Notes: a model not told the origin generated them from the letters alone. Counted from the first letter of the stretch, positions 8,414 through 24,332 are shown. The stretch: 25,040 nucleotides of DNA from a virus (IMGVR_UViG_3300043775_000908:1-25040); one strand, 5' to 3'. Made by a program: numbers and translations.

Positions 8414-8430
8414 AAATAACAAGGAGAATA

Positions 8431-10113
8431 ATGAATTCATTTAAGAAAATTGCCCTAGGACTCGCTGCAGCCATGTCCTTTGGCGTCATGTCAGCACTTC
8501 CGACAAATGCTGCTGTCATTGCACCAACCTTGACAATTGATTCTGCTACAGATTCAATTATCGTAGGTGAGACTGCAACAGCAGTAGTTTCATTGTCATA
8601 TATTTCAGAAACATCAGCAGATACAGCAACAGTTTTATCCGCTATGTTTACACAGCCATCTACGGCTAATAAGTCTGCAACACTCACACTGCTTGAAACA
8701 AATACAGCAACAGTAGTAATTGCAGGAGATAGTTTGACTGCAAATGTTAACTCAACAATTAACACAGCAGGTTATGTAACAGCAAAGTTTACAGTTACTT
8801 TGGCTGCTCCAACAGTTGCTGGAACATATGTTGCAACAATTCTTACAACACGCCCATCAAGTGGTCCCTCTGTAACTTGGACAGTAACAGTTGGTGCAGG
8901 AGATACAACTCCTTCAGCATCAACAACAACTTCAATCCTTAATAGAGGCGAAGTAATTACTGCTACAGCAGATGATTCAGTGTTTGCTCCAAAGGTAGCA
9001 TCGTCAGATGCAGCAGCGGTAATTGTTCTTTCACAGAAAAATGCAGCAGGTAGAGGAACATCAGAATCACTTCTTGCTACAGTAACTGGTTCAGGTCTTG
9101 TTGGTTATGGCACAAATGCTACAACAATTGGATCAGCAGGTCGTTCTCTTGTAATACCATCAGGCAACTACATTGGTGTTTTTGCTGACGGTACAGCAGG
9201 AGTTGGAACAATCACTATTACAACACTTACAGGCACAGTTCTTGCAACAGAGACTGTAACATTCTACGGAGACATCGCTACAATCGTGGCAACTCCAGTT
9301 AAGTCTGTTATTTCAGTTGGTTCAAACGCAACCACTGTAAAGGCAGTTGCTAAGGATGCATCAGGCGTGACCGTTGGTGCTGGAACACTTTATGCTAATT
9401 CATCAGACTTGTCTGTAGTATCTGATTCAGGTACAGCAGTAGCAATTTCAAATGGTGAAGCACTATTTACAATTACTGGCGTTAAGGCTGGTGGTGCTGC
9501 AATTACAATTAGAAATGCAACAGGAACAATTATTTCTGCTCCAGTATCTACTCGTGTAGAAGCAGCAGCAGCAACTGTTAAGTTGACATTTGATAAGGAA
9601 ACATATCTTCCAGGTGAAGCAGCAACTATCAAGGTACAAGTTCTTGATGCAGCAGGTCTTCCAGTATCTGGAAAGACACACTCAGCACTATTTGCTACAG
9701 GTGGAATTTCTTCTACTTATGCATTTGGTTCAGGTTCAGATGCTCTTACAGCAACATCAGTTACAACTGATACAGAAACAGTAAAGTCATACAAGGTATT
9801 TATGCCATTGACAGAAAACACTGTAACAATTTCTGCAACAGGTGGAACATCATTGCCACTTGCTGGTCAGGTAGCAGTATCTGCAACAGCAAAGGTATCA
9901 AATTCTTCATCTAGCACAAATGCTACTCTTGCAACATTGGTTGCACAGATTACCGCAATGCAGGGAATCTTTGATAGTCTTAAAGCAGAACTTGCTGCTG
10001 AAAAGGCTAAAGCAATTGCTGATCGTGCTGCTTTTGTAAAACAGTACAACACACTTGCTACAAAGTGGAACAAGAAGAATCCAAAGGCAAAGGTTGCACT
10101 TCTAAAGAAGTAA
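8431..10113 (+). CDS. secreted Thr/Ala-rich surface (S-layer-like) protein
   Basis: A 560-aa protein with a textbook Sec signal peptide: basic n-region (SFKK), hydrophobic core (ALGLAAAMSFGVM), and a signal-peptidase site near residues 27-28 (PTNAA). The mature part is a chain of beta-rich, Thr/Ser/Ala-rich Ig-like modules (for example VGETATAVVSLSY, VTWTVTVG, and KLTFDKETYLPGEAATIKVQ), with almost no Cys. The last ~64 residues form a coiled-coil (LVAQITAMQGIFDSLKAELAAEK) and end in a basic tail. The layout resembles actinobacterial S-layer or surface proteins. G+C is higher than in neighbours (25 of 60 at 8881-8940), with strong preference for ACA, GCA and GTT, as expected for high expression. 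The ribosome-binding site AAGGAG is ideal. It lies between TerL and a terminator. It could be a virion surface protein or a host-surface mimic. Confidence 0.8.
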   Translation: MNSFKKIALGLAAAMSFGVMSALPTNAAVIAPTLTIDSATDSIIVGETATAVVSLSYISETSADTATVLSAMFTQPSTANKSATLTLLETNTATVVIAGDSLTANVNSTINTAGYVTAKFTVTLAAPTVAGTYVATILTTRPSSGPSVTWTVTVGAGDTTPSASTTTSILNRGEVITATADDSVFAPKVASSDAAAVIVLSQKNAAGRGTSESLLATVTGSGLVGYGTNATTIGSAGRSLVIPSGNYIGVFADGTAGVGTITITTLTGTVLATETVTFYGDIATIVATPVKSVISVGSNATTVKAVAKDASGVTVGAGTLYANSSDLSVVSDSGTAVAISNGEALFTITGVKAGGAAITIRNATGTIISAPVSTRVEAAAATVKLTFDKETYLPGEAATIKVQVLDAAGLPVSGKTHSALFATGGISSTYAFGSGSDALTATSVTTDTETVKSYKVFMPLTENTVTISATGGTSLPLAGQVAVSATAKVSNSSSSTNATLATLVAQITAMQGIFDSLKAELAAEKAKAIADRAAFVKQYNTLATKWNKKNPKAKVALLKK

Positions 10114-10128
10114 ACTAATCCAACAACT

Positions 10129-10158
10129 AAGGGAGTCATTAATTTGGCTCCCTTTTTT
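10129..10158 (+). terminator. rho-independent terminator
   Basis: AAGGGAG at 10129-10135 pairs perfectly with CTCCCTT at 10148-10154, extendable by a G-U and a C-G pair into the loop, and the stem runs into six T residues at 10153-10158. It lies 15 nt after the stop of the secreted-protein gene and would end transcription from the terminase operon. Confidence 0.9.
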
Positions 10159-10170
10159 GTTTGCATAAAA

Positions 10171-10179
10171 TGGTATAAT
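10171..10179 (+). promoter_or_regulatory. extended -10 promoter (TGG-TATAAT)
   Basis: A perfect TATAAT at 10174-10179 preceded by TGG lies directly after the terminator and 36 nt before the TTG start of the 885-aa gene. No good -35 is visible at 16-18 nt (that position is inside the T-tract), so it would depend on the extended -10. A +1 near 10186 leaves a leader of about 30 nt with AGGAG at 10199-10203. Confidence 0.7.
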
Positions 10180-10215
10180 TACTTATATAATTACACATAG
10201 GAGACCACCACTCAA

Positions 10216-12873
10216 TTGACAAATCTCAAACGAAGACTAATATTAGCCTTTGGGGTGGGATTATGCCTAACAATTTTTGGTGTTATGGCTCCTAACGAGG
10301 CTTATGCTAATGATAACCAAGAACAGGTAGTGGTTAGTCCTGCCCAGGAAGCAGTCAATACAGCCCTTGCAACGGCTACTACAGAGGTTCAACAGGCAAT
10401 TGCAGCCACAGACACAGCCACCGCTACCATAGCAGTAGCAGTTGCTGAAAGGCTAGAGGCTCAAGCAGCGGTAGATACAGTAACAGCCACAGTAGTAGTA
10501 GCACAATCAAGCGTAGCCTTAGTAGACACAGCCACAGCCACAATTAGTGCTATAGACTTATCTGTTACACAAGTAGATCAAAGTTCGCAGGTAGTTCAAG
10601 ATGCTAAAGATACTATTGTTACAGCCCAAACTTCTATAAATAACATTGACACATCAACAGCACAGGTTCAAATATCTGAGGCTATTGCAGCAAAAACTGA
10701 AGCAGTAACAGCACGAACAACTGCTCAAACAGAGTTAACTCAAGCAAACATTGCTATTGATAATGCCCAAACAGCAGTTAATAATCTTCAAGCAACTATT
10801 GGAACAACCACAAATGTTTTGGCTGGCGTAGATGATGCTGGAGTAAGAATGAATCTTCCTTTTGGAATGCAGATGGGTGGAATTTTATATAATGATGTTT
10901 ATGTTGGATCAAATGCAACAATAACATTTGGTGTAGATCAAGGATGGGTCTACTACCAAACTCCAGATGCCCCCTCAGTATCTATTGCTGGATGGGACTG
11001 GACTACTTGGAGTACAGGAACAGGAATTACATATTCAACTACTGGAACAAGTTTAGATATTGCTTGGGACTTAAGACCATATCCTCAACAAGATGCCTCT
11101 ACACAAATGGTACAAATTAGATTTAATGCTGATGTTAATCCAAACGATGGAGCATGGATAGCAAATGTAACCGCTGTAGGTCCAATACCAAATCAAGCAA
11201 GATTTAATTATAGAGAAACAACTAATGGAGCCATCACTCTTATTGAGGATACAAATGTAGGTTCAGGATTTGCTGGGCAGGTAAGTCAAGGTGCAGAATT
11301 TACCCCGTATGTAGATCCAAATACATCAACAGTACAGGCAGCAGTAGATGCAGCAAATGCAACTATTGTCCAATTAAATTCAAGCCTTACACCAGTAGTT
11401 GCTCAAAATACCACAAACACATCAGCAATAAATGCTATTGATACTACTTCATTAACTAATACATTAAATGCAGCGGTATCTACTAAAACAAATTTACAAA
11501 CACAATTAAATACAAATGCTCAAGAACTAACTACAGCAATTAGCACTCACATTCCTACTCCTGCTCCAGTAATTTCAGAAACAGTTGTTCAGGGTACTAC
11601 CGTTACTATAGCGCCAGAACTTCCAACTGGGTATGCAGCAAATACTTGGTTTTATCAAGTAGTAACTGAAGATCCAAATGCAGCAAACCCATATGAAGGT
11701 GGCACCTATAATACAGATGGCGCTCCAGAATCTATTGAGTTGACTGGTTTAACAGAAGGTGCTACATATTCTATTAGAGTTGCTAACTGGTCTGGACCTG
11801 TAAGTGAATACGCAGAAGTTATTGTTTCTATACCCGCACCAGAACCAGTTGTTGTTGCTCCATCACAACCAGTTTTTATTTCTGTGCCTGATATTCCTCA
11901 ACAAACTGTACCAGACGAGACCATTCCAACTGAAGAGGATAATACAGTGATAGAAGATGTTCCTGTTGAAGAGATTCCTGTTGAGGAAATTCCAGTTGAA
12001 GAAGTTCCTGTTGAGGATGTTCCTGTTGAGGATATTCCTGTTGAAGAAGTGCCTTCCGAAGAGCCTGAATCTCCCGAAACGGATACACCTGAATCTGATG
12101 AGCCTTCATCCAACGATGAACTAGAAAATATTCTTGAAGAAAATCAGGATTTTTTTGAAGAAATAACACAAGATAATGATACCTTATCTGCAGAAGAAGT
12201 AAAAGATATCGTTAGTGATTTAGTTTCAGATAGTGGTTTAGATGCATCTGAAGTTGCAGAAGTTTTAGAAACAATTGCTGAAGGTGGAGAAATATCTAAA
12301 GAAGTTGCTGCAGAAGTTTCATCTACATTATCTGAGGGTGGATTAACCGAATCAGAGGCAGAATTTATTACAGAAATGTTATCTTCAGATGGAGAAATAA
12401 CAACAGCAGAAGTTATTAATCTATCGGAAACATTGTCTGAAGATGGAAAATTTACTTTGGCAGAAAAAGATTTGGTTGCAGATGTATTGGTGACTTCAGC
12501 AGAAGGTGCACCAGTTGAAGCAGCAGCCATACAGGCAGCGGGACTTGAATATCGTGATCTTCCACCAACAATACCAGTAGAGGTAAGAGAAGACGCTAAT
12601 GGTAATCCCGTAGTTATTGAGGCAGAGGTAGCATCAGCCCTATTAGTTTTAGAAAATCCAGCAGCATTGTTGGGTGCAGTTGCTACTTGTTTTAATCCAG
12701 ATGAAGCAATTGAAGGTTTGACAGAAGAGCAAAAATGTGAGTTGGGTAAAGCCCTACTTAATATAGGTGCTGATATGTCTATACCAGAACGTGAAAAAGC
12801 AGAAGATATTGTGGTAGTAACAATTATTGCTGGTCAGGTAATTATTGCTACTGCACCTAGAAGAAGGAGATAA
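10216..12873 (+). CDS. large multidomain secreted, possibly membrane-anchored surface protein
   Basis: An 885-aa mosaic. Residues 1-31 are a signal peptide (NLKRR, hydrophobic core, site at NEAYA). About 35-195 is a low-complexity Ala/Thr/Val helical or coiled segment (repeated TATATI and TAQT types). About 200-372 is a beta-sandwich-like domain rich in Trp/Tyr/Gly (SIAGWDWTTWSTGTG). A second helical linker follows, then an FnIII-like module at about 455-545. PVEE(I/V) tandem repeats occupy 582-616. An acidic helical array at about 640-790 has DG(E/K)IT-type turns recalling EF-hand or dockerin spacing. The end is a hydrophobic stretch (IVVVTIIAGQVIIATA) and PRRRR, which looks like a stop-transfer anchor. 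TTG is the only reasonable start. The family is not recognised; it may be a fibre, adhesin-like or host-surface protein. Confidence 0.78.
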   Translation: MTNLKRRLILAFGVGLCLTIFGVMAPNEAYANDNQEQVVVSPAQEAVNTALATATTEVQQAIAATDTATATIAVAVAERLEAQAAVDTVTATVVVAQSSVALVDTATATISAIDLSVTQVDQSSQVVQDAKDTIVTAQTSINNIDTSTAQVQISEAIAAKTEAVTARTTAQTELTQANIAIDNAQTAVNNLQATIGTTTNVLAGVDDAGVRMNLPFGMQMGGILYNDVYVGSNATITFGVDQGWVYYQTPDAPSVSIAGWDWTTWSTGTGITYSTTGTSLDIAWDLRPYPQQDASTQMVQIRFNADVNPNDGAWIANVTAVGPIPNQARFNYRETTNGAITLIEDTNVGSGFAGQVSQGAEFTPYVDPNTSTVQAAVDAANATIVQLNSSLTPVVAQNTTNTSAINAIDTTSLTNTLNAAVSTKTNLQTQLNTNAQELTTAISTHIPTPAPVISETVVQGTTVTIAPELPTGYAANTWFYQVVTEDPNAANPYEGGTYNTDGAPESIELTGLTEGATYSIRVANWSGPVSEYAEVIVSIPAPEPVVVAPSQPVFISVPDIPQQTVPDETIPTEEDNTVIEDVPVEEIPVEEIPVEEVPVEDVPVEDIPVEEVPSEEPESPETDTPESDEPSSNDELENILEENQDFFEEITQDNDTLSAEEVKDIVSDLVSDSGLDASEVAEVLETIAEGGEISKEVAAEVSSTLSEGGLTESEAEFITEMLSSDGEITTAEVINLSETLSEDGKFTLAEKDLVADVLVTSAEGAPVEAAAIQAAGLEYRDLPPTIPVEVREDANGNPVVIEAEVASALLVLENPAALLGAVATCFNPDEAIEGLTEEQKCELGKALLNIGADMSIPEREKAEDIVVVTIIAGQVIIATAPRRRR
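11959..12063 (+). repeat. 15-bp tandem coding repeat (PVEE[I/V])
   Basis: Seven consecutive 15-nt units of the form (G/A)TTCCTGTTGA(A/G)GA(A/G/T) encode PVEE or PVED with Ile/Val; the last unit has diverged to PSEE. The repeats form an extended, proline-spaced acidic stalk in the secreted protein. Copy number in such repeats typically varies by slippage between strains. Confidence 0.9.
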
Positions 12874-12875
12874 AA

Positions 12876-13049
12876 ATGAAAAAGTTAAAAGAATGGGGTA
12901 TGGCAATCCTCAATGAAAACTTTACATTTCTTGGCTTCTTTGTAGCATGGGTGGTTTTAGAGGGTAGCGCAAAGACGGTGGTAGGGTACGTAACCCTGGC
13001 ATCAGTAGCCATATGGTTTGCAACCATTGGTATTCGTAAAGAAGACTAA
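12876..13049 (+). CDS. small two-helix membrane protein, holin candidate
   Basis: A 57-aa protein two nt after the preceding stop, with AGAAGGAGA directly upstream as ribosome-binding site. It has a basic N-terminus (KKLKEWG) and two predicted transmembrane segments: residues about 15-32 (FTFLGFFVAWVVLEG) and 37-52 (VVGYVTLASVAIWFATI), then a charged tail (RKED). This is the size and layout of a class II holin. Support comes from context: the endolysin lies three genes downstream, with only a lipoprotein and another membrane protein in between. No sequence motif proves the role, and another small membrane protein is possible. Confidence 0.65.
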   Translation: MKKLKEWGMAILNENFTFLGFFVAWVVLEGSAKTVVGYVTLASVAIWFATIGIRKED

Positions 13050-13055
13050 TAAGTT

Positions 13056-13064
13056 TGCTATAAT
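13056..13064 (+). promoter_or_regulatory. extended -10 promoter (TGC-TATAAT), start codon at predicted +1
   Basis: TGC-TATAAT ends at 13064, and the ATG of the lipoprotein gene begins at 13071, six nt later, where transcription should begin. An AGGAG sits in that short gap but would not be on the mRNA if +1 is at the ATG. It therefore predicts a leaderless transcript, with upstream read-through mRNA able to use the AGGAG. Confidence 0.6.
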
Positions 13065-13070
13065 AGGAGT

Positions 13071-13295
13071 ATGTCAAAACTACGCATATTCCTATTATCA
13101 ACTACTTTAGCCCTAGGACTAACATCCTGTGGCTATCAGGGTTTTTATAGATATCCATGCCAAAATCCAGAAAATTGGGAAAAGGCAGAATGTAATCCTC
13201 CAATTTGTGAGGCATCTGGAACATGCACAAAAGATATGATTAAAATAGATAGAGATTCAAACTTAAATACAACAGGGGGAACAACAAATGAGTAA
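13071..13295 (+). CDS. small lipoprotein
   Basis: A 74-aa protein with a type II signal peptide: MSKLRIFLL, hydrophobic core, and a lipobox LTSC with the lipidated Cys at residue 21. The mature part is only ~54 aa and holds four more Cys (PCQ, ECN, ICE, TCT), probably in disulfides outside the membrane. It reads GYQGFYRYPCQNPENWEKAE and on to a polar tail. It lies between the holin candidate and a second membrane protein in the lysis group. Roles such as a spanin-like factor or superinfection exclusion are possible; in a Gram-positive-type host an outer-membrane spanin is unlikely. No family is assigned. Confidence 0.75.
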   Translation: MSKLRIFLLSTTLALGLTSCGYQGFYRYPCQNPENWEKAECNPPICEASGTCTKDMIKIDRDSNLNTTGGTTNE

Positions 13296-13698
13296 ACAAA
13301 AATTAACTCCACAAGATTTAGATGCAAGATTAAAATTTATTTTAGGTATTACATTAGGATCAATCCTATTTCTTACATCAGTAGGAATTCTGTATGGTCT
13401 TCTTTTTGTAAGTCAACCAATTGGTGCACAATCAGAAAATGATAAAATGTTTTTTAATGTACTTGGTTCAGTTGCAACATTTATTACAGGAACACTTGCA
13501 GGTTTATTAATTGGTCAATCTGGTGCAAAAGATGTAATGTCAGCACAATTAGCCAATAAAGAAATGGATGCTAAGAATACACAAGCAGATAAAAAACTAG
13601 AAGCAGAGATTGATGCAACTGCAGCACGTTTGGCAGCAAAACCAGATGGAGCAATGCCAGAAGCACAACCAGTTGATACAGATTGGGATAAAGAATAA
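13288..13698 (+). CDS. membrane protein with cytoplasmic coiled tail, holin-like
   Basis: A 136-aa protein with two transmembrane segments, at residues about 17-40 (FILGITLGSILFLTSVGILYGLLF) and 52-70 (VLGSVATFITGTLAGLLIG). A long charged, Ala-rich helical tail (residues 75-125) ends in acidic residues. It starts 8 nt inside the lipoprotein gene with CAGGGGGA as ribosome-binding site and overlaps the endolysin by TAATG. Direct coupling to the endolysin makes it a strong candidate for holin or antiholin, alternative to the 57-aa protein upstream. The long hydrophilic tail is longer than usual for holins. Confidence 0.75.
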   Translation: MSKQKLTPQDLDARLKFILGITLGSILFLTSVGILYGLLFVSQPIGAQSENDKMFFNVLGSVATFITGTLAGLLIGQSGAKDVMSAQLANKEMDAKNTQADKKLEAEIDATAARLAAKPDGAMPEAQPVDTDWDKE

Positions 13699-14273
13699 TG
13701 GCAGAACAAGGTACAGCAGAACGTTTAATTGAAGTTGCTACAGCAGAGGTAGGAACCATTGAAGGTCCTAAAGATAATGAAACTAAGTACGGGGCTTACA
13801 CAAAGGCTAACTTTCAACCATGGTGCGGATCTTTTGTAAACTGGTGCGCTAATGAGGCTGGTGTAAAGGTTCCTAATACTGTTTATACTCCAGGTGGAGC
13901 ACAAGCATTTAAAAAAGCGGGGTCATGGATTGATGGAGATTTAGCAGACCCAGAGCCAGGGGATATAGCCTATTTTGATTTCCCTTCAGATGGTGTTGAT
14001 AGAATTTCTCATGTTGGAATTGTTGTAAAAGACAATGAAGATGGAACAGTCTGGTGCATTGAAGGAAATACTAGCCCAGATAAAAAAGGAAGCCAAAGAA
14101 ATGGCGGACAGGTTTCAAAGAAACTTCGTGCATTTAAGAAAAATAAACAAGGCGAAATGATATCAATAGTAGGATTTGGTAGACCTAAATTTGGCTCTAC
14201 CCCTGCGGGTACTGCTAAAAAGACTGCTAGTAAGCCTAAAACATGCTCAGCGTGTGGCCAAAGCATTAAATAA
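13698..14273 (+). CDS. CHAP-domain endolysin
   Basis: A 191-aa peptidoglycan amidase or endopeptidase. The CHAP catalytic Cys is C43 in PWCGSFVNWC, the His is H105 in ISHVGIVV, and the third polar residue lies in IEGNTS (E122/N124); PGDIAYFDF is the usual strand before the His. After residue 155 a Lys/Ser/Ala linker leads to a minimal zinc-ribbon half (CSAC, 183-186), an unusual C-terminus where a cell-wall binding domain would be expected. No signal peptide, so release through a holin is expected. It would cut the host wall at the end of infection. Confidence 0.88.
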   Translation: MAEQGTAERLIEVATAEVGTIEGPKDNETKYGAYTKANFQPWCGSFVNWCANEAGVKVPNTVYTPGGAQAFKKAGSWIDGDLADPEPGDIAYFDFPSDGVDRISHVGIVVKDNEDGTVWCIEGNTSPDKKGSQRNGGQVSKKLRAFKKNKQGEMISIVGFGRPKFGSTPAGTAKKTASKPKTCSACGQSIK

Positions 14274-14279
14274 AGGTAT

Positions 14280-14308
14280 TTGACTAAGTAAAAAGGGTTT
14301 GGTATACT
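14280..14308 (+). promoter_or_regulatory. sigma70-type promoter TTGACT-N17-TATACT
   Basis: TTGACT at 14280-14285 and TATACT at 14303-14308 are separated by exactly 17 nt, with a TGG before the -10. This is the best full promoter in the window. Transcription would start near 14315, leaving a 22-nt leader with AGGGGGA before the ATG at 14337. Confidence 0.85.
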
Positions 14309-14336
14309 TAAATAGTATATTCTAGGGGGATTTTTT

Positions 14337-14867
14337 ATGACTGTTCTGGCCGTTGTTCGTGATTCAGCAACTAATAAAATCTATATGGCTGGTGAACGTG
14401 GTGCCTCAGATGATAACACTATACTTTCTTTGACCGCTCCAAAAGTTTGGAAACTTGGACCATATTTAATTGGATATGCTGGATCTTTGGATGGAGAACG
14501 TATTCGTTATAATTTTAATCCTTATGTACCAGATATAAAAGACACAGATAAATTTATGCAAACTAAATTTATTAAACAACTAAAAAATTTTTATAATGAT
14601 TGGTGGGTTGATACTGGTAAAGAGGCTGATCTTGGTCTAATTGTTTGTATAAAAGGACAAATATATGAACACAATGCAGTTGATATGTCTTTATCTAAAT
14701 ATAATTTAGATTATTTAGCAATGGGTTCTGGGGCTGAATATGCTTATGGTTATTTGCATGCTACAGAAAAATCTAAAGATGCTCGTAAAAGAGTTGTAGG
14801 AGCAGTAAATGCTGCTATTAAATTTAGTCCAACCTGCATGGGTCCAGTTGACGTGGTAAGTATTTAA
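14337..14867 (+). CDS. HslV/20S-proteasome-like Ntn-hydrolase
   Basis: A 176-aa protein with the length and motif order of HslV and proteasome beta subunits. MTVLAVVRD places a Thr directly after the initiator Met, as in HslV, so Met removal would expose the nucleophile. YMAGERGAS matches the AGD-type loop. Lys36 (APKVWKL) fits the catalytic Lys. YLIGYAGSLDGERI matches the G-(F/Y)-AG loop, and YLAMGSGAEYAYGYL is the conserved GSG segment. CMGPVDVVSI closes the fold. It would form a ring protease or a related amidase. No ATPase partner (HslU, Mpa or ClpX type) is seen nearby, so it may borrow the host unfoldase or act alone. It has its own strong promoter. Confidence 0.8.
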   Translation: MTVLAVVRDSATNKIYMAGERGASDDNTILSLTAPKVWKLGPYLIGYAGSLDGERIRYNFNPYVPDIKDTDKFMQTKFIKQLKNFYNDWWVDTGKEADLGLIVCIKGQIYEHNAVDMSLSKYNLDYLAMGSGAEYAYGYLHATEKSKDARKRVVGAVNAAIKFSPTCMGPVDVVSI

Positions 14868-14876
14868 AGGTATACT
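14848..14876 (+). promoter_or_regulatory. sigma70-type promoter TTGACG-N17-TATACT, inside the 3' end of the previous gene
   Basis: TTGACG at 14848-14853 and TATACT at 14871-14876 are exactly 17 nt apart. The -35 lies within the last codons of the Ntn-hydrolase gene. The ATG at 14883 starts six nt after the -10, at the expected +1, so a leaderless mRNA is predicted; no ribosome-binding site precedes the ATG. Confidence 0.75.
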
Positions 14877-14882
14877 TATAAT

Positions 14883-15089
14883 ATGAATCATTCATATAAG
14901 GAAGATTTATCTCCAGAAGAAACAGAGTTTGGTATCTGGCTTGAAAACGGTATTGAAAGAGGTTGGGTAACACCACCTTACTGCAATACCCATGATGGTG
15001 GATACGAATATATGGGAGAAGAAGAACAAGAAGAGTGGGAAGCAGGGGGCGACCCGTGTTGTCATGTCATCAGATTGATGATATCTTAA
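14883..15089 (+). CDS. small acidic Cys/His protein (probable zinc binder)
   Basis: A 68-aa, strongly acidic protein. The core reads WVTPPYCNTHDGG, then an acidic run (GEEEQEEWEAGG), then DPCCHVIRL, so a Cys-x2-His and a Cys-Cys-His group could form one metal site. No membrane or signal sequence is visible. The start codon coincides with the predicted transcription start and has no Shine-Dalgarno sequence. The short hydrophobic end (IRLMIS) probably completes a beta-strand. It is the kind of small conserved protein common in actinophages; function unknown. Confidence 0.72.
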   Translation: MNHSYKEDLSPEETEFGIWLENGIERGWVTPPYCNTHDGGYEYMGEEEQEEWEAGGDPCCHVIRLMIS

Positions 15090-15104
15090 AAAATAAGGGG
15101 TAAA

Positions 15105-15776
15105 ATGAAAATAAAAAGTAAAGTTATTGGTACAATTTTTGGAGTAATTGCTTCATCTTTTGTATTTATTTCAGTTCCAGTTGTAGCAAATGCAGGAGAA
15201 TGTTCAGCATCAGATCCTTGTCAAACTTATGCAGTGTTAGATAACGCAAATAACGTTATTAATGTTATTGTTTGTCAACCATCAGTTTGCGGTAGTGGAA
15301 CTTTTGCAGGTAATCGTGTTATTTTGCAAGTTGCTGCTAACCCACAAACAAATGATCCAAGTGGAACAAGTGGTCAAATGACAAGGCCAGATGAAAATAA
15401 AGTTGTTACATATTCAGATAATGGTATTTTTACTGTAAAAAAAGATGAAACTGTTGTTCAAACTATTGCAGTACCAGAAATTCAAACTCAAAATGTAAAC
15501 AATACAACAACAATAACAATAACATCTATGCAGGCACAGTTTATTGATACTACTACTGGCTCTGTAAAAGTTGATGCAACTCAAACTATTAATTCTAATA
15601 CAGTAGCATCTGGTTCTACTATAAATAATACAAATACTATCAAAGAAACTGTTGTTTTTGAAGAAAGAAAAACAGAGCAAGAAATATCATCTATACTTTT
15701 GCAAAGAAATCTTACTTTACTACAATCAAAAATTAATAGACTTTTACTACTTTTAGATGAGTGGATAAAAAAGTAA
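15105..15776 (+). CDS. secreted protein with disulfide-rich N-terminal domain
   Basis: A 223-aa protein with a Sec signal peptide (MKIKSKVIG, core GVIASSFVFISVPVV, site ANA at about residue 31). The mature start has four Cys (ECSASDPC and VCQPSVCG) around the strand TYAVLDNANNVINVIV, a small beta domain. The rest is Thr/Asn/Ser-rich beta sequence, ending in a helix (SILLQRNLTLLQSKINRLLL) that probably trimerises or anchors by coiled-coil. AAGGGG at 15096-15100 is a good ribosome-binding site. It is the third secreted protein in the window and may act at the cell surface or on the virion. Family not recognised. Confidence 0.74.
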   Translation: MKIKSKVIGTIFGVIASSFVFISVPVVANAGECSASDPCQTYAVLDNANNVINVIVCQPSVCGSGTFAGNRVILQVAANPQTNDPSGTSGQMTRPDENKVVTYSDNGIFTVKKDETVVQTIAVPEIQTQNVNNTTTITITSMQAQFIDTTTGSVKVDATQTINSNTVASGSTINNTNTIKETVVFEERKTEQEISSILLQRNLTLLQSKINRLLLLLDEWIKK

Positions 15777-15788
15777 TAAATTAATGTT

Positions 15789-15859
15789 GCGGATATTGCA
15801 TAGTGGTAGTGCGTAACCTTGCCAAGGTTAATGTGCGGGTCCGATTCCCGCTATCCGCT
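15789..15859 (+). tRNA. tRNA-Gly (anticodon GCC)
   Basis: The acceptor stem GCGGATA/TATCCGC, the D-arm GCAT/GTGC, the anticodon stem TAACC/GGTTA with loop TTGCCAA, and the T-arm GCGGG-TCCGATT-CCCGC all pair. The anticodon is GCC (Gly). The 3' CCA is not encoded, as is common in Actinobacteria. Confidence 0.93.
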
Positions 15860-15863
15860 CTAT

Positions 15864-15935
15864 GCCCTCATCGTCTAGTGGTTAGGACATCACCCTTTCA
15901 CGGTGGTAGCAGGGGTTCAATTCCCCTTGGGGGTA
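15864..15935 (+). tRNA. tRNA-Glu (anticodon TTC)
   Basis: The acceptor stem GCCCTCA/TGGGGGT has wobble pairs, including one at its outer end. The anticodon stem is TCACC/GGTGG with loop CTTTCAC, and the T-arm is AGGGG-TTCAATT-CCCCT. Anticodon TTC reads GAA/GAG. It starts four nt after tRNA-Gly, and CCA is not encoded. Confidence 0.92.
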
Positions 15936-15937
15936 CT

Positions 15938-16009
15938 GCCTCCTTAACTCAGGGGTAGAGTACCCGCCTTGTAAGCGGGTTGTCGTAGGTTCAAATCCTA
16001 CAGGAGGCT
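15938..16009 (+). tRNA. tRNA-Thr (anticodon TGT)
   Basis: The acceptor stem GCCTCCT/AGGAGGC, the anticodon stem CCCGC/GCGGG with loop CTTGTAA, and the T-arm GTAGG-TTCAAAT-CCTAC all pair. Anticodon TGT reads ACA, the threonine codon used heavily in the long secreted proteins of this window. CCA is not encoded. Confidence 0.94.
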
Positions 16010-16016
16010 CAACAAA

Positions 16017-16560: not shown

Positions 16561-17460
16561 ATGAATGGAGAAACTAATATTGTGACAAATTTAATAAATC
16601 AAATTATAAAAAATAATGAAGATCAGATTTTTTTTACAAAAGATGAAGAAATAGTTATAAATAAATATACTGATTTTTATCATTTAAAAGTAAACGAAAA
16701 AATAAAAAATTTTAATTATTTAGATCCAGACTCTTTAATTTTTATGAATGATGGCTATGCAGAAATTGATGATGATGGCTATCCATTTGATGACATAGAA
16801 GTAAAAAATTTTATATTAAATACAAAATATAAAAATTTTAAATATCAAGTTGCTTTATATAAACAACTGCTAGACTTTGCAAAAATAAAAAATAATAATG
16901 ATATAAAAGTTTTAGTTGATATTGGATGTGGTAAAGGCGGAGGAGTTTCATTTTATAAAAATTTTTATAATTTTGATTATTGCATAGGAATTGACTTAAC
17001 TAGAGTTAACATAGATGTAGCAAAAAAACACGAAAAAAAGGTTAATTTTTTTATTGCTTCAGCAACAAATTTGCCAATAAATGACAACACTGTTGACGTC
17101 ATAACTTCTGTTGAATCTATATTTTATTATGATCCAATGTCAAAGTTTGCACAAGAGGCATTCAGAGTTTTAAAAGATAATGGCAAACTTTTAATATCTG
17201 CAGATTTAACAGAAAAACAAGAAAAGATTATGGAAGATACTTTTTTAAATAATGGTCTTGTTTTATATGATAAAAAAAATATAACAAAAAATGTTAGGAT
17301 GGGTTGTTGTATTTCAAAGTCTAGATTTATGGATATATCTTTTTCAGAATCAATAATAATGAGCAATGATGAAACAAAATATTTTGGAGAAAATAAAACT
17401 TTTAAACAATATAAAAATTTTATATTTATTAAGAAAGAAAACAACTATGCCAAGATATGA
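16561..17460 (+). CDS. class I SAM-dependent methyltransferase (Methyltransf_11-like)
   Basis: A 299-aa protein with an N-terminal ~110-residue extension of its own and then a Rossmann methyltransferase. Motif I is LVDIGCGKGGG, the acidic strand is CIGIDLTRVNI, and ASATNLPINDNTVDVITSVE is the motif II/III region. EAFRVLKDNGKLLISADL is the family's post-motif strand. The pattern resembles methyltransferases acting on lipids, sugars or small molecules. The start may be ATG 16561 at the predicted +1, or GTG 16582 preceded by GGAGA. Extremely AT-rich (11 G/C in 17221-17280), suggesting foreign origin relative to neighbours. It overlaps the FmdB-like gene by 14 nt. Confidence 0.83.
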   Translation: MNGETNIVTNLINQIIKNNEDQIFFTKDEEIVINKYTDFYHLKVNEKIKNFNYLDPDSLIFMNDGYAEIDDDGYPFDDIEVKNFILNTKYKNFKYQVALYKQLLDFAKIKNNNDIKVLVDIGCGKGGGVSFYKNFYNFDYCIGIDLTRVNIDVAKKHEKKVNFFIASATNLPINDNTVDVITSVESIFYYDPMSKFAQEAFRVLKDNGKLLISADLTEKQEKIMEDTFLNNGLVLYDKKNITKNVRMGCCISKSRFMDISFSESIIMSNDETKYFGENKTFKQYKNFIFIKKENNYAKI

Positions 17461-17892: not shown

Positions 17893-18300
17893 ATGTATGA
17901 GTATTTTGTAAAAGAAGTGAAGAACGTAGTTGATGGGGACACCATTGATGTAATTATTGATTTAGGGTTTGATATTTTGTTTTCATCTCGTGTCAGACTT
18001 GCTGGAATTGATACACCAGAATCACGCACAACAGACAAGGCCGAAAAGGCTCTTGGTATTGAGGCTAAAGAATATTTAAAGAAACAACTTAAGGATGCAA
18101 AGTCTGTAGTTATTCGTACAGAAAAAATGGATTCGTCTGAAAAGTATGGTCGTATTCTTGGCTGGGTTTATGTTAATGGTGATTCTGAATCATTAAATAA
18201 TAAAATGATTAATGATGGATATGCTTGGGGCTACCTTGGCGAAACTAAGATTAAAGATTTTGAGGCACTTAAAAAGGCTAGAGCAAAGTCTGGCAAGTAA
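17893..18300 (+). CDS. staphylococcal-nuclease-like thermonuclease
   Basis: A 135-aa SNase-fold nuclease. VVDGDTIDV opens the OB-fold; R35, D40 and E43 in RVRLAGIDTPES are the catalytic arginine, calcium ligand and general base; R87 in EKYGRILGWVYV is the second arginine. These positions coincide with those of the mature Staphylococcus enzyme. NKMINDGYAWGYLG completes the family. There is no signal peptide, so it would act inside the cell, perhaps in degrading host DNA or recycling nucleotides, unlike the secreted homologue. It overlaps the thioredoxin gene by one base (TAATG). Confidence 0.93.
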   Translation: MYEYFVKEVKNVVDGDTIDVIIDLGFDILFSSRVRLAGIDTPESRTTDKAEKALGIEAKEYLKKQLKDAKSVVIRTEKMDSSEKYGRILGWVYVNGDSESLNNKMINDGYAWGYLGETKIKDFEALKKARAKSGK

Positions 18301-22451: not shown

Positions 22452-22658
22452 ATGAATGTAACCAAACAAAGATCAGCACTAAAAGCAATTACATGGCGTG
22501 TCATTGGAACAGCAGATACCTTTGTTATCTCTTGGGCCATAACCAAAGAGCCAGTAACAGCAGGTGCTATTGCAAGTTTTGAGGTATTTACAAAAACAAT
22601 TCTTTATTACTTCCATGAGCGTGGTTGGAACTATATACAATGGGGTAGATATGAGTAA
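22452..22658 (+). CDS. DUF2061 small membrane protein
   Basis: A 68-aa protein with the DUF2061 pattern: QRSALKAITWRVIGTADTFV, then SWAITKEPVTAGAIASFEVF, then LYYFHERGWNYIQWGR. Two hydrophobic helices flank a short loop, so it is an integral membrane protein. DUF2061 is often found beside or fused to adenylylsulfate-kinase-like proteins, and here it follows one by 45 nt, so the two probably work together. ATG 22452 is preferred over GTG 22443. Its C-terminus overlaps the next gene by 8 nt. Confidence 0.88.
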   Translation: MNVTKQRSALKAITWRVIGTADTFVISWAITKEPVTAGAIASFEVFTKTILYYFHERGWNYIQWGRYE

Positions 22659-23358
22659 AAAAATAAAAATAATACCAGCATTAGAGTTAGATGAAAGTTT
22701 TGTGAATATTTCTCCAGCAAGTGATTTTATACCTGAATGGTATAGAAAATCTAATTTAACAATTGAAAATCAAAAAACTTCTTTGTTAAAACATAATCCA
22801 AGTGTAACAACATCAACTTACAAAAAATGTACTCCATTTTATGATGCACTTACTGCAGGATATATTATTTATTTGTCTGCAGATATAGAAGTAATTAATC
22901 AAAACGATTGTCCACATATTTTATGGAGAACTAAAAATACTATAATTACAACACATGATAATAATCAATGGGAAGGTTTACCAGTTCCAGACGGTTATTT
23001 TCCTTTTGTATATAAATGGCATAATGATTTAATTTTAAAATTACCAAAAAATTATTCTTTGTTATTTTTAAATCCTATAAATAGGTTTGATTTACCTTTT
23101 CAAACAATTACTGGTATAGTTGACTGCGATTTATATGATTTAGCAGTTCATTTTCCATTTTTTATTAAAAAAAATTTTTATGGCATTATAGAAAAAGGGA
23201 CCCCAATTACACAAATAATTCCAGTTAAAAGAGACAGTTGGGATAGAGAAATTGATAAATATAATGAAATACAACATAGTGTAGCAGAAAGAAAATATTT
23301 TTCAAAAATAAAAAGATCTTATAAAAATAATTATTGGTTTAAAAAAGAATATAGATAA
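22651..23358 (+). CDS. conserved protein of unknown function (DUF6065-like pattern)
   Basis: A 235-aa protein starting at ATG 22651 after GGGGTAG; a longer frame into the preceding gene is not needed. It carries PASDFIPEWYRKSN, CTPFYDALTAGYIIYLSADI, and later NPINRFDLPFQTITGIVDCD, GIIEKGTPITQIIPVKRDSW. This recurring pattern is known to me from bacterial and phage proteins of unknown function (DUF6065-like), but my naming is uncertain. No membrane segment or signal is visible. The gene is very AT-rich compared with the DUF2061 gene, suggesting different ancestry. Confidence 0.68.
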   Translation: MSKKIKIIPALELDESFVNISPASDFIPEWYRKSNLTIENQKTSLLKHNPSVTTSTYKKCTPFYDALTAGYIIYLSADIEVINQNDCPHILWRTKNTIITTHDNNQWEGLPVPDGYFPFVYKWHNDLILKLPKNYSLLFLNPINRFDLPFQTITGIVDCDLYDLAVHFPFFIKKNFYGIIEKGTPITQIIPVKRDSWDREIDKYNEIQHSVAERKYFSKIKRSYKNNYWFKKEYR

Positions 23359-23716: not shown

Positions 23717-23838
23717 AAAAGAAAACAAAGGTATTGGTATTAATAATATTATCTTTCTTAACTGCCATATCTCTTTGGGCAGCCTCTAATTTTAAAAAAA
23801 TGTCTAACTTAGATATTTTTAATATAGAAGAAGATTAA
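23713..23838 (+). CDS. single-pass tiny membrane protein
   Basis: A 41-aa protein: basic start (KKKTK), one transmembrane helix (VLVLIILSFLTAISLWAA) and a short acidic end (NIEED). It overlaps the previous gene by ATGA and the glycosylase gene by one base. The orientation is probably N-in. Function unknown; it may be a small membrane effector. Confidence 0.6.
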   Translation: MKKKTKVLVLIILSFLTAISLWAASNFKKMSNLDIFNIEED

Positions 23839-24332
23839 TGCAAACATTTTTACCATTTCAAAATTATGCAGAATCTGCAAAGTCCTTAGACAATAAACGT
23901 TTAAATAAGCAAATACTTGAAGCCTACCAAATACTTAAGGTGTTGTCTGGTCAGTCACCTTCGGGGGCATGGAGAAATCATCCTGCAGTATTAATGTGGA
24001 AAAATGCAGAGTACTCACTGAGAACTTATGCTAAAACCATGATTACAGAGGCTAAATCAAGGGGTATAAAGACAGACAAGAACGAGTCTAACATAGAAGC
24101 CCTAGAAACCCTTTGTGGCCCTATATGGGGCACTAATAAGCCCTTCTGGGCTAACTCTTCTGGTCCACATATAGATAGAATTAACATTACTCATAGGGCT
24201 AACCTATATCGCAAAGATCCAGATTTTTATGCTGAATTTTATATTGATACAAAAAATAAAAATAATAAACCTTGCTGTGATAAGTGTTTATATTATTGGG
24301 CAACCCATGCCATTAGAGATAGAGTACAATAG
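23838..24332 (+). CDS. pyrimidine-dimer DNA glycosylase-like protein (MSMEG_6728/Pyr_excise type)
   Basis: A 164-aa protein with the family's conserved start MQTFLPFQNYAESAKSLDNK and RLNKQILEAYQILKVL, then GAWRNHPAVLMWKNAE and a tail containing CCDKC. The same N-terminal pattern is found in actinobacterial proteins annotated as pyrimidine-dimer glycosylases, related to T4 endonuclease V (DenV). It would start base excision of UV-induced dimers, sensible for a phage exposed to sunlight. The catalytic mechanism (N-terminal amine) fits an initiator Met-Gln start only if the Met is processed, which I cannot verify. Annotation is at family level. Confidence 0.75.
   Translation: MQTFLPFQNYAESAKSLDNKRLNKQILEAYQILKVLSGQSPSGAWRNHPAVLMWKNAEYSLRTYAKTMITEAKSRGIKTDKNESNIEALETLCGPIWGTNKPFWANSSGPHIDRINITHRANLYRKDPDFYAEFYIDTKNKNNKPCCDKCLYYWATHAIRDRVQ

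Follow-up and report, generated by a model that had tools for sequence, protein, structure and literature searches.

The gene directly downstream of terL in a 25-kb viral record of IMG/VR (IMGVR_UViG_3300043775_000908, 25,040 nucleotides, hereafter the window) encodes a protein of 560 amino acids, P560, whose body is exchanged among related phages as a cassette and whose homologues include a variable surface protein located at a fixed chromosomal locus in one order of actinobacteria. We consider the chance somewhat better than even that the phage dresses its host in a coat of its own, a phage allele of this S-layer-like protein, and so excludes competitors. About evenly balanced, in our judgement, is the wider proposal that a large group of freshwater actinophages maintain host-derived alleles of S-layer type as a common stock that recombines, carry them in a cassette devoted to their expression, re-dress infected cells, exchange coats in step with the variable host locus, and display a second, membrane-anchored adhesin (the P885 family) from the lysis operon. 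Infected cells may in this way be given a new coat hiding them from other viruses; the slot, often swapped, is carried by many freshwater viruses of tiny actinobacteria. Recoating would clearly exemplify viruses that encode a complete host cell-surface protein as a swappable module. The finding also provides a candidate variable surface locus in small freshwater actinobacteria, alleles of which are carried by phages, and makes receptor identity and phage competition for the receptor directly testable questions.

Export signals and fold of P560

A first-pass annotation of the window had proposed three proteins with Sec signal peptides and a fourth small gene encoding a lipoprotein. The three open reading frames were found as described, P560 at 8431-10113 (560 aa), P885 at 10216-12873 (885 aa) and P223 at 15105-15776 (223 aa), all on the plus strand, as are the features described below from the Shine-Dalgarno sequence of the slot gene to the endolysin gene. 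A rule-based scan (not SignalP) of 44 window ORFs for a basic n-region, a hydrophobic core, an A-x-A-like site and a lipobox classed all three N-termini as signal-peptide-like and ORF 13071-13295 as a lipoprotein with the lipobox LTSC, in agreement with that proposal; the others that it picked up encode small membrane proteins (57, 136 and 51 aa). The predicted signal peptide of P560 (aa 1-27, 8431-8511, MNSFKKIALGLAAAMSFGVMSALPTNA) resembles the N-termini of its host homologues (MSTKTTFKRVALVAVAALGLGVLSVAPSQA) and is kept in P560 relatives, which supports export independently of the scan. Export and anchoring of P560 are thus predictions well supported by homology.

The AlphaFold model of P560 (pLDDT 82) consists of a series of beta-sandwich domains, forming the body (8512-9900), followed by C-terminal helices, the tail (9901-10110). 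Foldseek matched the model to the S-layer proteins EA1, Sap and SbsC and to that of Nitrosopumilus, as well as to complement and invasin, with TM-scores that are low throughout; the predicted fold is compatible with an S-layer, the matches being generic, not diagnostic. Like EA1 and Sap of B. anthracis and like SbsC, P560 appears to be a secreted protein of tandem beta-sandwich (Ig-like) domains; in contrast to them it has C-terminal helices in place of an SLH domain, and TM-scores to them are 0.14-0.27. Some S-layer proteins do without the wall-anchoring domains SLH and CWB2. Neither these nor other known S-layer domains were detected by Pfam or NCBIfam in P560 or its host homologues. Of the traits of S-layer proteins, P560 has a predicted Sec signal peptide and a modelled tandem beta-sandwich architecture. 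It also shows full-length homology to a host surface protein (see below).

Could P560 instead belong to the virion, reaching the particle by export or by assembly and serving there, for example, in Ig-like decoration or in adhesion through host-like surface domains? Virions often bear Ig-like beta domains, and the gene adjoins terL. Against this stand the Sec signal peptide, the host-like tails of the family and the lack of any match to a virion family: searches of Pfam, PHROG, NCBIfam and PDB sequences assigned P560 to no family (P885 and P223 gave weak PHROG matches of unknown function), and no recognised structural genes lie around terL in the window. We regard a virion role as very improbable. 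By tblastn, neither P560 nor P885 had a relative in 50,697 phage records.

The slot gene and its exchange between phages

An IMG/VR scan revealed at least 491 relatives of P560. In the TerL-linked group the gene order is TerL, slot gene, P885 family, 57-aa transmembrane protein, usually followed by genes for the lipoprotein, the 136-aa transmembrane protein, a CHAP endolysin, an HslV-like protein and HSP20; the position of P560 immediately after terL, already pointed out by the first-pass annotation, is thus that of a slot recurring across this phage group. Window TerL is 55% identical over its full length to that of Streptomyces phages of the Stanwilliamsviridae (Yaboi, Karimac), which share a similar order dnaE-uvsX-ruvC-terL; in Yaboi, however, terL is followed by HNH and tRNA genes and there is no P560. 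Two P560 relatives lie on contigs where no related TerL adjoins them, one on a 136-kb contig ahead of two Gly-rich tail-fibre-like genes (L081, 10001-11713), the other on a 32-kb contig behind a thioredoxin gene (L066, 9920-11707).

The 94 distinct complete slot proteins fall into seven groups at about 60% identity and have three main kinds of body: A1 (P560-type, including a 33% branch), A2 (536-568 aa) and A3 (336-337 aa). Whatever the kind of body, nearly all of them open with MNSFKK or a sequence very close to it, and their signal peptides are alike.

Relationships of the slot proteins do not follow those of their phages. Over 79 phages, how similar two slot proteins are can scarcely be foretold from TerL (Spearman 0.07 between the identities). 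Phages with more than 95% identical TerL can carry P560-slot bodies of only 18-25% identity; among such pairs slot identity drops to 18%, and RecA stays at or above 91%, CHAP at or above 82% and the 57-aa protein at or above 93%. The converse, slot proteins 97% identical in phages with 80% identical TerL, was found too. DNA alignments of seven phage pairs locate the borders of the exchanged segment. Identity is 85-96% up to the end of TerL and mostly still high (62-88%) over the Shine-Dalgarno sequence and the first 14 codons, falls to 46-60% in codons 15-30 and 53-65% in body and tail (random sequences give about 52-54%), and climbs back to 73-87% just past the terminator. Homology is thus lost within the signal peptide and regained past the terminator, so the slot body is exchanged as a cassette. 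That such transfers also happen recently follows from the discordant synonymous divergence between the window and one relative (L004), with dS of 0.91 in TerL, 0.16 in the slot body and 0.00 in signal and tail. The dN/dS of slot bodies, approximately 0.14-0.34, indicates that the protein is maintained by purifying selection.

The slot gene also carries expression signals of its own. In the window it is preceded by a consensus Shine-Dalgarno sequence (AAGGAGAA, 8421-8428) and followed by an intrinsic terminator with a 10-pair stem and a T run (10129-10154), and an AGGAG motif before the gene and a strong hairpin with T run behind it were present in 20 of 20 slot genes inspected. Since the overall count of terminators is at shuffle level, the terminator assignment relies on this recurrence behind every slot gene; a promoter scan likewise gave no more sites than shuffled sequences. 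With its strong ribosome-binding site and terminator, P560 is predicted to be expressible strongly and alone. Better codon use of P560 than of its neighbours, claimed earlier, was borne out against TerL (effective codon number 35.2 versus 40.2) but is not peculiar to the gene, as non-secreted window genes also reach 34-36.

Host relatives and proposed recoating of the infected cell

A full-length host relative was found by genome scan on a 165-kb chromosomal contig of an actinobacterium from Lac Pavin (37% identity). In a sample of one genome per species, 57 of 296 genomes of a single GTDB order contain P560 homologues, usually in single copy and mostly of 600-700 aa (E-values from 1e-98 to 1e-5); the other 239 gave no A1 match. 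All 11 matches in a class-wide sample of 178 genomes bear handles of the same order. The small size of the genomes (0.8-2.2 Mb) and their freshwater source point to Nanopelagicales as the likely order, with members that are probably acI-like. An actinobacterial host is likely for the phage as well, as the window includes a WhiB gene; the evidence for assigning it to the host order is homology and WhiB rather than CRISPR-spacer matches or cultivation. The previously suggested resemblance of P560 to S-layer proteins and its mimicry of a host surface protein are thus well supported.

In the hosts, frequently on single contigs of 1.2-1.5 Mb, the surface protein gene has an ECF sigma factor gene on one side and a gene for a Wzy_C O-antigen ligase on the other; after the ligase gene comes that of a UDP-sugar dehydrogenase, in many cases with an epimerase gene as well. 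The locus (L166, 3598-9992; L207-L222) is conserved around the varying surface protein. Perhaps the adjacent ligase O-glycosylates proteins and has the surface protein as its substrate. A2 bodies occur in four of the 296 host genomes, in two of them at the same sigma-ligase locus and in a third beside the sigma gene, indicating that A1 and A2 represent alternative alleles of one locus; A3 has its host relative elsewhere.

Host bodies are strongly variable and host tails (LTNLVIKIQKKVKA, LTALVNKLLKK) constant. In phages, tails are exchanged between bodies; several phage tails are 74-89% identical to host tails, their bodies only about 35-46%. A tree of 48 sequences placed 23 of 25 phage representatives in one clade (SH-aLRT 100) nested among hosts, with the L102/L160 phage type outside it. 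Because this was a quick, midpoint-rooted tree, the direction from host to phage rests on the broader diversity of the hosts and their fixed locus. A recent transfer of P560 from a known host is not supported: the main phage type forms a single clade of its own, L102/L160 apart, and the GC3 of P560 (0.18) is phage-like.

These observations lead us to the following proposal. P560 would be a phage-owned allele of the variable, S-layer-like host surface protein, expressed strongly and independently from its own ribosome-binding site and terminator and exported via Sec. Its C-terminal helical tail would fix it to the wall or to the lattice that holds the host's own protein, and the infected cell would be recoated with a surface unlike the host's. 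The host protein itself presumably forms an S-layer and serves as phage receptor. The most likely benefit would be that rival phages, together with progeny of the phage itself, stop adsorbing to the infected cell or its debris, so recoating would plausibly exclude other phages and block superinfection. By changing the body while signal peptide and terminator stay constant, phages would keep pace with a surface that varies likewise at the host locus. Weighing against the proposal are the 239 genomes of the order that gave no A1 match, the lack of SLH or any other known S-layer domain, the generic nature of the structural matches, and the tail type of the window, which had no counterpart in 181 host genomes (see below).

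The main rival of recoating is upkeep of the existing coat, in the manner of cyanophage psbA: with host expression shut down, the phage would supply the surface protein and keep the coat intact until lysis, no exclusion being involved. Homology to the host protein, strong expression signals and purifying selection fit this equally well. We nevertheless find it unlikely, as upkeep alone would not require unrelated bodies to be swapped between close phages, the phage clade is old, and phage bodies are only about 35-46% identical to those of the best sampled host (one genome per species). Body divergence and swapping both disfavour it relative to recoating.

Alternatively, P560 might be secreted and shed, capturing rival phages in solution by their tail proteins and leaving the cell uncoated. 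Strong expression signals would suit such a decoy, and so would tails of the window and A3 types, which have no close match in sampled hosts; for the window type (YNTLATKWNKKNPKAKVALLKK) none was found in 181 host genomes by a search run without a positive control. The closeness of most other phage tails to the host tail suggests retention on the cell, however, and makes a released decoy highly improbable.

Recoating would have parallels in known systems. Superinfection-exclusion surface proteins and related functions, such as T5 Llp and O-antigen conversion genes, are cases where a phage-encoded surface change blocks adsorption. The proposed role of P560 resembles theirs in that the phage alters the surface of the infected cell; they block or modify the receptor, whereas P560 would replace a whole host surface protein by its own allele. 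The psbA gene of cyanophages came from the host; phages retain it, pass it among themselves and express it while they infect. Host origin and exchange among phages are common to psbA and P560, but psbA is metabolic and highly identical to the host gene, unlike the strongly diverged body of a surface protein. Gene_23 of the marine methylophage Melnitz was described as a putative S-layer-type protein, and its authors postulated an altered host surface and superinfection protection, the same role as for P560 (PMC9004378). We take it as one weak precedent: compared by description only, it is a single annotation from another host group, and the account of this gene describes no host-locus homology, swapping or cassette (PMC9004378).

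Our literature search, with most subscription papers outside its reach, retrieved no report of swappable host-derived coat alleles and nothing relevant on S-layers in this host group (PMC6802176 does not contain the terms sought). Cultured acI phages E7 and F5 have genomes of 39 kb, and neither S-layer nor receptor occurs as a word in the text describing them (PMC10202952). The same source refers to acI-type small freshwater actinobacteria as abundant in lakes and to heavy phage predation as the assumed driver of acI microdiversity (PMC10202952).

P885, P223 and the lysis neighbourhood

The search of host genomes, proposed for all three secreted proteins, supported mimicry for P560 with its conserved surface-polymer locus and failed to do so for the other two. 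P885 as a host mimic was rejected, as it matched 1 of 296 host genomes and only in the fn3 region; so was P223, with partial matches inside longer host reading frames in 3 of 296. The P223 head domain occurs there within open frames of 470-515 aa (L227-L229).

P885 (10216-12873) comprises a signal peptide, a coiled coil, a beta-rich domain, an fn3-like domain (aa 457-527), an acidic linker and a helical C-terminal part; the hydrophobic segment aa 862-880 that precedes RRRR agrees with the possible C-terminal anchor anticipated by the first-pass annotation. Its structure model is of low confidence (pLDDT 55). In P885 relatives the signal peptide and C-terminal domain are kept and the ectodomain is swapped for PA14 (above the Pfam cut-off), fn3 or another beta domain. 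Genes of this family directly precede the gene of the 57-aa protein with two predicted TM segments (12876-13049 in the window) in 103 loci. In 43 loci, including phages devoid of the P560 slot, the run continues without interruption through the 74-aa lipoprotein (13071-13295) and the 136-aa protein, holin-like by position and with two TM segments (13288-13698), to the CHAP endolysin (13698-14273; Pfam CHAP 9e-12, PHROG endolysin). The original idea of one set of proteins rebuilding the host surface thus mixes P560, a swappable coat gene, with a lysis-cassette neighbourhood, to which P885 and the lipoprotein belong, since they accompany holin-like and endolysin genes in P560-less phages too.

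P885 is best seen as a phage-only, membrane-anchored protein, probably displayed, that heads the lysis cassette and would be expressed with the lysis genes. Its strict position at the head of that cassette also fits a factor for lysis or envelope disruption that merely happens to be displayed and remodels no surface, a reading we hold to be possible though the weaker of the two, since an ectodomain that switches among PA14, fn3 and a different beta domain suits a ligand-binding protein better than one that disrupts membranes.

P223 (15105-15776) is predicted to be a phage-specific secreted protein; its relatives conserve a Cys-containing head and a C-terminal helix. Between the endolysin gene and P223, an HslV-family peptidase-like gene (14337-14867) keeps the same position across the phage group, and three adjacent tRNA genes (Gly, Glu, Thr; 15789-16010) lie behind P223. 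Elsewhere in the window, three genes of low GC (0.23-0.25, the rest being much higher) at 2060-2629, 16561-17460 and 22564-23358, two of them methyltransferase-like by eye, were possibly acquired from elsewhere. The window also contains a staphylococcal-nuclease-like gene (17893-18300) and a gene for a pyrimidine-dimer DNA glycosylase (Pyr_excise, 23838-24332).
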